A stretch of 64,000 bases of DNA, taken from Ammoniphilus oxalaticus. GTDB taxonomy: Bacteria > Bacillota > Bacilli > Aneurinibacillales > RAOX-1. Numbering within the stretch: the first letter of the stretch is position 1; each line of letters opens with the position of its first letter. Below, one piece after another: positions 7,697-10,056 of this stretch. The stretch covers positions 620,001-684,000 of the forward strand of contig NZ_MCHY01000008.1 of assembly GCF_003609605.1 (NCBI RefSeq), in the 5' to 3' direction. Both the position numbers and the translations under genes were made by a program. Below the pieces are notes generated by a model, which was not told where the DNA came from, ran no database searches, and saw nothing but the letters and a program-made list of their open reading frames with translations.

Positions 7697-7729
7697 AAAA
7701 AAGGAACCCACAAGCGAGTGGATTCCTTT
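7697..7729 (-). terminator. Terminator of the Fur-box micro-gene
   Basis: 12-bp stem (AAAGGAATCCAC/GTGGGTTCCTTT read on the minus strand, one G-T pair) followed by six T. It overlaps the last base of the micro-gene stop codon. Confidence 0.85.
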
Positions 7730-7821
7730 TAAGGTTTAACTTTATTTATCGTATGTATCATGAGTGGATAGGCGACAAGTAATCCGGATAATAAAATAAT
7801 TTCTAATGTTTGTAAGTCCAA
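7729..7821 (-). CDS. 30-residue single-pass membrane peptide, Fur-box controlled
   Basis: Short gene with every signal in place. GAGGTG lies 7 bases before a TTG start. The 30 codons give an amphipathic head (MDLQTLE), one hydrophobic helix (IILLSGLLVAYPLMI) and a basic tail (HTINKVKP). A terminator follows at once. The promoter is a perfect TTGACA-17-TATAAT, and a Fur box covers the predicted transcription start. I do not recognise the peptide. Its size recalls KdpF-type and FbpC-type small proteins, but no match is claimed. It diverges from pfeT, so a role in iron stress is inferred from context. It could also be a small RNA with an incidental ORF. Confidence 0.6.
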   Translation of the reverse strand: MDLQTLEIILLSGLLVAYPLMIHTINKVKP

Positions 7822-7848
7822 TAGAGCGCACCTCTATTCTTTTATAAT

Positions 7849-7863
7849 TAATAATCATTATCA
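7849..7863 (-). promoter_or_regulatory. Fur box
   Basis: Minus strand TGATAATGATTATTA matches the 7-1-7 Fur consensus TGATAAT-N-ATTATCA at all but one position. It lies 7-21 bases downstream of the TATAAT at 7870-7875, where bound Fur would block transcription start. Zur or PerR binding is less likely because the core is GATAATGATTAT. Confidence 0.75.
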
Positions 7864-7869
7864 ATTACA

Positions 7870-7898
7870 ATTATAGCGAATGAGTAAATGATTGTCAA
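7870..7898 (-). promoter_or_regulatory. Consensus sigma-A promoter of the micro-gene
   Basis: Minus strand TTGACA (7893-7898), 17-base spacer, TATAAT (7870-7875). Both hexamers are perfect. The expected start point is near 7863, inside the Fur box. Confidence 0.85.
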
Positions 7899-7928: not shown

Positions 7929-7957
7929 TTTACAAAAGGGTGGAAGCAGCCTATAAT
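7929..7957 (+). promoter_or_regulatory. Sigma-A promoter of pfeT
   Basis: TTTACA at 7929-7934, 17-base spacer, TATAAT at 7952-7957. This leaves a leader of about 165 bases before the pfeT ATG. Confidence 0.65.
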
Positions 7958-7981: not shown

Positions 7982-8007
7982 AATTACAATTACGTTGTAT
8001 TGTAATT
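7982..8007 (+). promoter_or_regulatory. Palindrome in the pfeT leader, possible metalloregulator site
   Basis: Perfect 9-base arms AATTACAAT/ATTGTAATT separated by 8 bases, about 20 bases downstream of the predicted start. The inner TACAATTACGTTGTA resembles a degenerate Fur/PerR 7-1-7 site. B. subtilis pfeT is known to respond to PerR and Fur, so one of these is a reasonable candidate. Confidence 0.45.
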
Positions 8008-8048
8008 GTTTTGAATATAAGAGAAGTGAATATTATTTTTTCCTTGGT

Positions 8049-8072
8049 GCTGCTGTCCATTTGGACAGCAGC
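8049..8072 (+). promoter_or_regulatory. Perfect hairpin in the pfeT leader
   Basis: 10-bp perfect stem GCTGCTGTCC/GGACAGCAGC with ATTT loop. No T-run follows, so it is not a normal terminator. It may stabilise the leader or act with the overlapping small ORF at 8097. Confidence 0.5.
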
Positions 8073-8096
8073 ACGCGTACTTTAAGGGGGAAATAA

Positions 8097-8168
8097 ATGA
8101 AATTCATTATCAAGGAGGGGGGATGTAACGATGAGCGCAAACGTAAAAGAAAAGGTTCAGGAGCGTGA
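8097..8168 (+). CDS. Possible 23-codon leader ORF overlapping pfeT
   Basis: ATG 8097 has AAGGGGG about 8 bases upstream. It reads through the pfeT Shine-Dalgarno and start in another frame, ending with TGA at 8166-8168. The product is very basic (KRKRKG near its end) and contains one Cys. Translation would occupy the pfeT ribosome binding site, so coupling is possible. It may be chance. Confidence 0.3.
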   Translation: MKFIIKEGGCNDERKRKRKGSGA

Positions 8169-10056
8169 TCGGCGTCAAGAAGAAGGGATTGACGTCGCGG
8201 CTTGGTTTAAACAACATGGCGAGAGTGTCGCCGTGATTGGCAGCGGGGCGCTTACACTGATGGCTTGGTTGTTGTCGGGTCAATCGCAGCTGTCGGTTGG
8301 ACTATTCTTGTTGGCTTATATTATCGGTGGATATGCCAAAATGAAGGAAGGTATTATAACGCTCGTTAAAGAGCGCGATTTAGATGTTAATCTATTGATG
8401 TTGCTCGCGGCAATCGGGGCGGCAAGCATCGGTTATTGGTTAGAAGGGGCCGTTCTGATTTTTATTTTTGCGGTGAGCGGTGTCCTAGAAAACTATACGT
8501 TGGCGAAAAGTTATCGTGAGATCGCTTCTTTGATGGATATGAAGCCAGAGATGGCTGTCCGTCTTATTGACGGTCAGGAACACGCGGTAAAAATAGAGGA
8601 ATTACAAGTCAAAGATCTCGTCATCGTCAAACCAGGTGAACGGATTCCAGCAGATGGGATCGTGAAGGATGGGGTGTCGTTCGTTGATCAAGCAATGATT
8701 ACGGGTGAGTCTGTTCCTGTTGAAAAAGCAACAGGCGAGGAAGTTTTTGCCGGTACATTGAATGGGCAAGGCTCGCTCATAATTGAGGTAACAAGTTCAA
8801 GTGAGTCAACCTTATTTTCCAAAATTATTCGGATGGTGCAAGAAGCGCAAAGTGAAAAACCAGCTTCACAACAGTTTATGGAAAGATTCGAATCGACTTA
8901 TGCAAAAAGTGTGCTTGGGATTACCGTTGTTTTAATCATGATTCCACCATTTGTATTTGGCTGGAGTTGGACCGAGGCCCTTTATCGAGCAATGGTCTTT
9001 CTCGTTGTCGCTTCGCCTTGCGCCCTCGTTGCTTCCGTTATGCCTGTTATTCTTTCGGCAATCTCTAGTTCAGCAAGGAAAGGGGTTTTATTCAAAGGTG
9101 GAGCCCATCTGGAGATTCTAGCGGAGATTAAAGCAATTGCGGTAGATAAAACGGGTACGTTGACCCTCGGTCGTCCTCAAGTGACGGATATTCATGCGTA
9201 TCAAGGTTATGAGCGGAACGATATTTTACGAATTGCCGGAGCGATCGAAATGATGTCGGAACATCCAATTAGTCTGGCGCTTATTGAGAAGGCGAAGGAA
9301 GAAGGGATTGAGCTGATTCGTCCTAATCAAATGCAATCTTTTCCCGGGCGAGGGGTCGCCGCGGAATATGAAGGATTGAACTGGAAAGTTGGGAATGCTG
9401 ACTTTGTTGGATCCGAGTTGTTTGATGAACAGACGCGCGAACGAATTAACGAGTTGGAAAAACAGGGTAAAACAGTCATCTATCTTACAAATCATGAGGG
9501 ATTAGCGGGTCTGTTTGCGATAAAAGATACGATTCGGTTGGAAGCAAAGGAAACGATCGCCCAATTGAAAAACCTGGGGATTGCGGTTGTGATGTTAACA
9601 GGGGATCGTGAAGGAACGGCTCGCGCGATTGCCGATGAAGCGGGCATTGATGAAGTATACGCTGAAATGCTTCCCGCAGATAAGGTGGAAAAAGTGAAGG
9701 AGATGAGACAGAAATACGGTCAGGTTGCGATGCTTGGCGACGGGGTAAACGATGCCCCCGCGCTTGCGACCGCGTCGGTTGGGATCGCGATGGGGATTAC
9801 AGGCAGTGACGTCTCCTTGGAAACGGCCGATCTGGTGCTTGTGCATGATGATTTAGTAAGATTACCAGGGGCGATTCGAACAAGCCAAAAAGCGCGCAGA
9901 GTCATCAAGCAAAACATCGTTTTTTCACTCACAGTGATTTTTCTGCTGATCTTATCTAACTTTTTCCAATTTCTAACGTTACCGCTTGGGGTAATCGGAC
10001 ATGAGGGCAGTACGATTCTTGTCATTTTGAATGGCTTGCGGTTGTTGAAAAGTTAA
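8131..10056 (+). CDS. pfeT: P1B-4 type metal-transporting ATPase (PfeT/ZosA-like)
   Basis: Heavy-metal efflux P-type ATPase of 641 residues, near the length recalled for B. subtilis PfeT (formerly ZosA/YkvW), which exports Fe2+. Actuator motif TGES lies near 191, phosphorylation motif DKTGTLT near 336, the P1B HP dipeptide (SEHPIS) near 377 and the hinge GDGVNDAP near 537. The intramembrane metal site is SPC (ASPCALVAS near 293) instead of CPC, the hallmark of the P1B-4 group. No N-terminal HMA domain is present, only a charged 25-residue head. The Fur box and palindrome upstream agree with an iron or peroxide response. Zinc or cobalt as substrate cannot be excluded from sequence. Confidence 0.88.
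   Translation: MSANVKEKVQERDRRQEEGIDVAAWFKQHGESVAVIGSGALTLMAWLLSGQSQLSVGLFLLAYIIGGYAKMKEGIITLVKERDLDVNLLMLLAAIGAASIGYWLEGAVLIFIFAVSGVLENYTLAKSYREIASLMDMKPEMAVRLIDGQEHAVKIEELQVKDLVIVKPGERIPADGIVKDGVSFVDQAMITGESVPVEKATGEEVFAGTLNGQGSLIIEVTSSSESTLFSKIIRMVQEAQSEKPASQQFMERFESTYAKSVLGITVVLIMIPPFVFGWSWTEALYRAMVFLVVASPCALVASVMPVILSAISSSARKGVLFKGGAHLEILAEIKAIAVDKTGTLTLGRPQVTDIHAYQGYERNDILRIAGAIEMMSEHPISLALIEKAKEEGIELIRPNQMQSFPGRGVAAEYEGLNWKVGNADFVGSELFDEQTRERINELEKQGKTVIYLTNHEGLAGLFAIKDTIRLEAKETIAQLKNLGIAVVMLTGDREGTARAIADEAGIDEVYAEMLPADKVEKVKEMRQKYGQVAMLGDGVNDAPALATASVGIAMGITGSDVSLETADLVLVHDDLVRLPGAIRTSQKARRVIKQNIVFSLTVIFLLILSNFFQFLTLPLGVIGHEGSTILVILNGLRLLKS

Follow-up and report, generated by a model that had tools for sequence, protein, structure and literature searches.

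In the 64,000-nucleotide stretch of DNA that was analysed (the window), a short reading frame behind a Fur box lies back to back with the gene of a putative metal-exporting ATPase. This arrangement raises two questions, namely whether the short frame is a gene for a membrane peptide at all and, if so, which membrane protein the peptide acts on.

The elements of a complete small transcription unit were found on the minus strand (Table 1). The promoter agrees with the sigma-A consensus at 12 of 12 positions and is the sole such site within the 600 bp scanned, and the Fur box lies directly 3' of the -10 element, covering the expected transcription start. The predicted product contains one hydrophobic helix (core residues 8-22) between an acidic N-terminus and a basic C-terminus. 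The sequence-only reading had proposed just this unit: the perfect promoter, the near-perfect Fur box over the start, the GAGGTG seven bases before a TTG codon and the 30-codon frame for a one-helix peptide were all recovered. The terminator that it had described is present as well, but the stem comprises 13 pairs instead of 12 and begins within the stop codon.

Table 1. Features of the peptide gene and of the facing ATPase gene, in window coordinates
Feature	Position	Strand	Details
Sigma-A promoter of the peptide gene	7898-7870	minus	-35 TTGACA 7898-7893, 17-nt spacer, -10 TATAAT 7875-7870
Fur box TGATAATGATTATTA	7863-7849	minus	one mismatch to TGATAATNATTATCA
Shine-Dalgarno sequence GAGGTG	7834-7829	minus	7-nt spacing to the start codon
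Peptide reading frame MDLQTLEIILLSGLLVAYPLMIHTINKVKP	7821-7729	minus	TTG start 7821-7819, 30 codons to 7732, TAA 7731-7729
Intrinsic terminator of the peptide transcript	7730-7699	minus	13-pair stem, T-rich tail
Divergent promoter of the ATPase gene	7929-7957	plus	TTTACA-17-TATAAT, 11/12
Inverted repeat ATTACAATTACGTTGTATTGTAAT in the pfeT leader	7983-8006	plus
Perfect hairpin GTGCTGCTGTCC-attt-GGACAGCAGCAC in the pfeT leader	8047-8074	plus
Mini reading frame or box ATGAAATTCATTATCA	8097-8130	plus	MKFII[KR]...
pfeT, P1B4-type metal-exporting ATPase of the PfeT type	8131-10056	plus	SPC and HEGST motifs

Across the whole 3.32-Mb genome just 14 sites, the box of the peptide gene included, differ from TGATAATNATTATCA at no more than one position; when two mismatches were allowed, 46 sites were found versus 16 for a reversed control pattern. 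Ten other Fur-boxed loci of this genome were checked, and genes of the iron-uptake type were present at eight of them, at six directly behind the box and at two (FhuF and one Peripla_BP_2 protein) further away. These genes code for siderophore-binding proteins of the Peripla_BP_2 family (three loci), a FecCD permease, a NEAT protein, a siderophore-type acetyltransferase (Acetyltransf_8), a solute-binding protein of the SBP_bac_6 type and FhuF. Because the other boxed loci mostly hold iron-uptake genes, the box of the peptide gene belongs to the iron set of the genome. If a box with no more than one mismatch at the promoter is taken as the mark of the Fur regulon, the peptide gene is a member, and from this arrangement we infer that it is repressed by Fur. 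The same box may also help Fur to activate pfeT, as Fur does in B. subtilis at high iron (PMC9993123).

The divergent peptide-pfeT unit was found in 11 genomes from three families: besides the window genome, in two genomes of the same family, in five Aneurinibacillus genomes of the same order, and in three genomes of one genus from a further family, which is probably Brevibacillaceae. A scan of named genomes with an alignment of Aneurinibacillus members only gave matches in Aneurinibacillus thermoaerophilus, A. danicus and A. aneurinilyticus. In the relatives the peptide promoter matches the consensus at 9-12 of 12 positions, and the spacer is 17 nt long throughout. All 11 genomes keep a Fur-like box with 1-3 mismatches immediately behind the -10 element, together with a Shine-Dalgarno sequence and a frame of 29-34 codons; terminators were detected at the window locus and at all five Aneurinibacillus loci. 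Identity to the window peptide is 20-40% among the members, yet M1, E7, L10 and P19 are invariant in the alignment (M1 standing for an ATA codon in genome G012) and the hydrophobic core always occupies residues 8-22 or 9-23. The pooled in-frame pN/pS ratios, which are rough as they rest on about 30 codons, are 0.34 for Aneurinibacillus and 0.22 and 0.26 for the other two groups, whereas reading the Aneurinibacillus members in the two wrong frames gives 1.04 and 1.65.

At the G012 locus (L008) the other members' ATG is replaced by ATA, which the alignments show as M; beyond this codon the frame is intact, with the next in-frame ATG at codon 5. This may reflect near-cognate initiation or a decaying copy.

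These comparisons bear on the two simplest alternatives. First, the transcript could be a Fur-controlled small RNA of the FsrA kind with an incidental reading frame, as might be thought from its shortness, its strong promoter and terminator, and the ATA codon at the start position in G012. An RNA of this kind should be conserved as RNA rather than as protein; found instead were the purifying selection in frame at a frame kept in every locus, the conserved residues and core position, little transcript beyond the frame and its terminator, and only sub-threshold matches in an Rfam search. We therefore regard this alternative as very improbable. Second, the frame could be due to chance, with promoter and Fur box serving pfeT alone or nothing. 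Shortness and the TTG start in the window would fit, but promoter, box, Shine-Dalgarno sequence and frame are conserved in three families, so that this explanation is already contradicted by the comparative data and is hardly credible. Loss of the frame in relatives that keep the promoter, the outcome that would have spoken for an RNA, did not show up: ten relatives keep both, with G012 having its ATA start. Judged from these comparisons, the peptide is the product of a real conserved gene under selection at the protein level.

No significant match in Pfam, NCBIfam or PDB was obtained for any of the 11 members; the MgtS-like profile (PF22865) reached 13.5 bits with a single member, well below its curated cut-off of 27. 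Since the gene is conserved, selected in frame and without family matches, we consider the peptides, on the comparative data, to be a new family of single-helix membrane proteins of 29-34 residues and not the incidental frame of a small RNA. Annotation is likely to miss the peptide because no current family model detects it.

The facing gene had been taken for a likely Fe2+ exporter, PfeT. Its product carries VASPCALV and HEGST, its best NCBIfam match is a heavy-metal P-type ATPase, and it combines the features of PfeT-type P1B4 pumps, that is, an SPC membrane motif, HEGST in the last helices and no CPC. By these motifs the ATPase falls in the same class as PfeT of Bacillus and FrvA of Listeria, which bears out the proposed type; export of Fe2+ by the window pump itself stays a prediction. 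Co2+ and Zn2+ are further possible substrates of P1B4 pumps. The PerR-type boxes seen in relatives point to iron as the metal: perfect boxes TTATAATAATTATAA overlap the -10 region of pfeT in 3/5 Aneurinibacillus loci, and Fur- and PerR-type sites precede PfeT-type pumps among the loci compared.

The leader of pfeT has features of its own. Between promoter and start codon an approximately 12-bp hairpin (TGCTGCTGTCC..GGACAGCAGCA) was seen in the window and at L004-L009, L011, L012, L016, L017 and L095, with paired changes from TGTCC/GGACA to TGTTC/GAACA. It occurs with or without a divergent peptide, and in the window no Rfam family matched it. Just before the pfeT start, and often overlapping it, a conserved mini reading frame or box (ATGAAATTCATTATCA) is found at the same place in relatives; it could encode a leader peptide, serve to couple translation, or act as a downstream site of the Fur type. 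The inverted repeat listed in Table 1 is present in the window genome only, among eight aligned, and differs from a standard PerR or Fur box.

What the peptide acts on was approached through its genomic neighbours. Within the order of the window genome, the peptide was found in 8/8 genomes with a close PfeT and in 0/7 without (Fisher p 1.6e-4, relatedness not corrected). A profile scan of 399 genomes of the class, 177 of which have a PfeT-type ATPase, gave 11 clear matches, all divergent from pfeT, and a scan of 398 genomes of the phylum added no convincing further member; neither set yielded a clear copy at a distance from pfeT or in a genome that lacks it. A narrower profile had missed two members in the class-wide scan that the wider profile recovered, so more distant members may still escape. 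Further out, gene content varies from family to family, with a K+ channel gene in the window and, as read from the sequence, Dps-like and ferredoxin-like genes in Aneurinibacillus. In G240 the pair is interrupted by a transposase gene, but pfeT and the peptide gene are both kept. In a tree of PfeT proteins the peptide-bearing pumps fall into one region and two changes of state are needed; the peptide-pfeT pairing may have had a single origin.

Weak matches (E 5e-5 to 9e-3) in G231, G244, G349, G367, G166 and G556 were left out of the family. Those in G244 and G556 fall within long open frames and that in G231 within a long protein-coding frame; the scores in G349, G367 and G166 are far below those of the 11 clear matches. 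Elsewhere in the window genome (G000:C8:281159-281203, L002 about 1501-1545) a second promoter with 82% identity over 45 bp (GATTGACAATCA...ACTCATTCGCTAT) was noticed upstream of a CcpN-like HTH-CBS gene; it is accompanied by neither a peptide nor a good Fur box.

By its linkage, PfeT is well supported as the partner of the peptide. Alternatively, the peptide could be part of the response to iron starvation, act on another membrane target, such as an importer or a respiratory complex, and adjoin pfeT only because of a common Fur-binding region. Such a region would be present anyway if Fur activates pfeT as in B. subtilis, and Fur-like boxes do occur near pfeT in genomes lacking the peptide; some Bacilli with PfeT and no peptide have Fur- or PerR-like sites. 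Against this stand the confinement of all clear copies to pfeT loci and the lack of any importer common to the neighbourhoods across families, and we consider another target distinctly unlikely. Of the earlier proposal, a self-contained Fur-boxed gene tied to PfeT has held up; an importer, named there as a second possible target, has become less likely because pfeT is the only constant neighbour over three families.

In the third family, four more genomes have a different single-helix frame of 51-63 residues near the PfeT gene. It is divergent from pfeT with a Fur box of one mismatch at L104 (G321), on the same strand as pfeT with a perfect Fur box at L101 (G285), and divergent with no clear Fur box at L102 (G231) and L171 (G399). 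Homology of these frames to the 30-residue family is unsupported (hhalign probability 0.3%). The pattern suggests that a pairing of PfeT with a small membrane protein may have arisen more than once.

The most likely reading, to which we assign a probability of about 0.5, is that the peptide serves as a brake on PfeT during iron limitation, in the manner of MntS. Iron-loaded Fur would repress the peptide gene; when iron falls, Fur would leave and the peptide would be made. It would then insert into the membrane, probably with the N-terminus outside: the acidic N-terminus and the mostly basic C-terminus suggest an N-out, C-in topology by the positive-inside rule. Bound to PfeT, it would inhibit the pump or mark it for removal, so that pumps remaining from an earlier phase of high iron or of peroxide would be kept from exporting scarce iron. 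The topology, the binding to PfeT and the inhibitory sign are what we infer here. A reason for such a brake comes from B. subtilis, where induction of FrvA, the orthologue of PfeT, drains the cell of iron and switches on the Fur regulon (PMC9993123).

Several points speak against this reading. The Fur box could also or mainly serve pfeT, in which case the peptide could be there through shared regulation alone. PfeT works without the peptide, because most Bacilli with PfeT have none. One member, G012, has no canonical start codon. Roles as stabiliser or modifier of specificity match the linkage too, and the peptide might accordingly act on PfeT without inhibiting it, by stabilising the pump, protecting it from proteolysis or tuning it, much as MgtS and MgtU do for MgtA and MgtB, or KdpF for KdpABC. 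The linkage and co-occurrence data fit this equally, the known small proteins on P-type ATPases that a 2023 review lists alter stability (PMC10710835), and derepression of pfeT by peroxide through PerR, whose boxes overlap the pfeT -10 region in three of the five Aneurinibacillus loci, could coincide with low Fur activity. However, repression of the peptide by Fur is expected at the very time when the cell has most need of the pump, and a subunit or chaperone would be expected within the pfeT transcript, not on the opposite strand under opposite control. We consider a role other than inhibition unlikely. More generally, and tentatively, some Gram-positive bacteria might control an iron-exporting P-type ATPase post-translationally by a dedicated Fur-repressed single-helix peptide, a bacterial counterpart of sarcolipin and phospholamban for iron, in a pairing that arose more than once beside pfeT; we hold this wider proposal to be possible, with the odds somewhat against it.

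If the inhibitory reading of the peptide is true, a brake of 30 residues would show how cells avoid a futile cycle of iron import and export after iron has fallen, and the peptide-pump pair is a small, genetically separable test object. No small protein linked to PfeT or FrvA turned up in the open-access literature. The sections available of the 2023 review on transporter modulation describe small proteins that act on Mg2+ P-type pumps and on the manganese exporter MntP; no counterpart for an iron exporter or a P1B ATPase was found in these sections (PMC10710835).

Among known systems, B. subtilis PfeT and Listeria FrvA are likewise P1B4 iron ATPases under Fur (by activation) and PerR (PMC9993123); we found no divergent Fur-controlled membrane peptide described for them. 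KdpF is also a 30-residue single-helix partner of a P-type ATPase, the Kdp K+ ATPase (PMC3618439), but it is co-transcribed with its pump; its Pfam and NCBIfam profiles matched no member of the new family, whose neighbour is a P1B4 ATPase gene and not a kdp operon. MgtR, MgtS and MgtU resemble the peptide as single-helix proteins of about 30 residues on the P-type ATPases MgtA and MgtB (PMC10710835), yet these act on Mg2+ importers and on importer stability. The closest layout is that of E. coli MntS and MntP in the MntR regulon, with a small hydrophobic protein made at low metal and an exporter at high metal; genetic data suggest that MntS inhibits MntP when manganese falls (PMC4361602). Here the metal and regulator are iron and Fur instead of manganese and MntR, the partner is a P1B4 ATPase instead of MntP, and, unlike the 42-residue MntS, with which it has no family match in common, the peptide is encoded divergently from its pump; the likeness lies in the regulatory layout, and a like activity is presumed. 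Taken together, we class the peptides as a new family that would work like the known small-protein modulators of transporters, in the new setting of a P1B4 pump and Fur.
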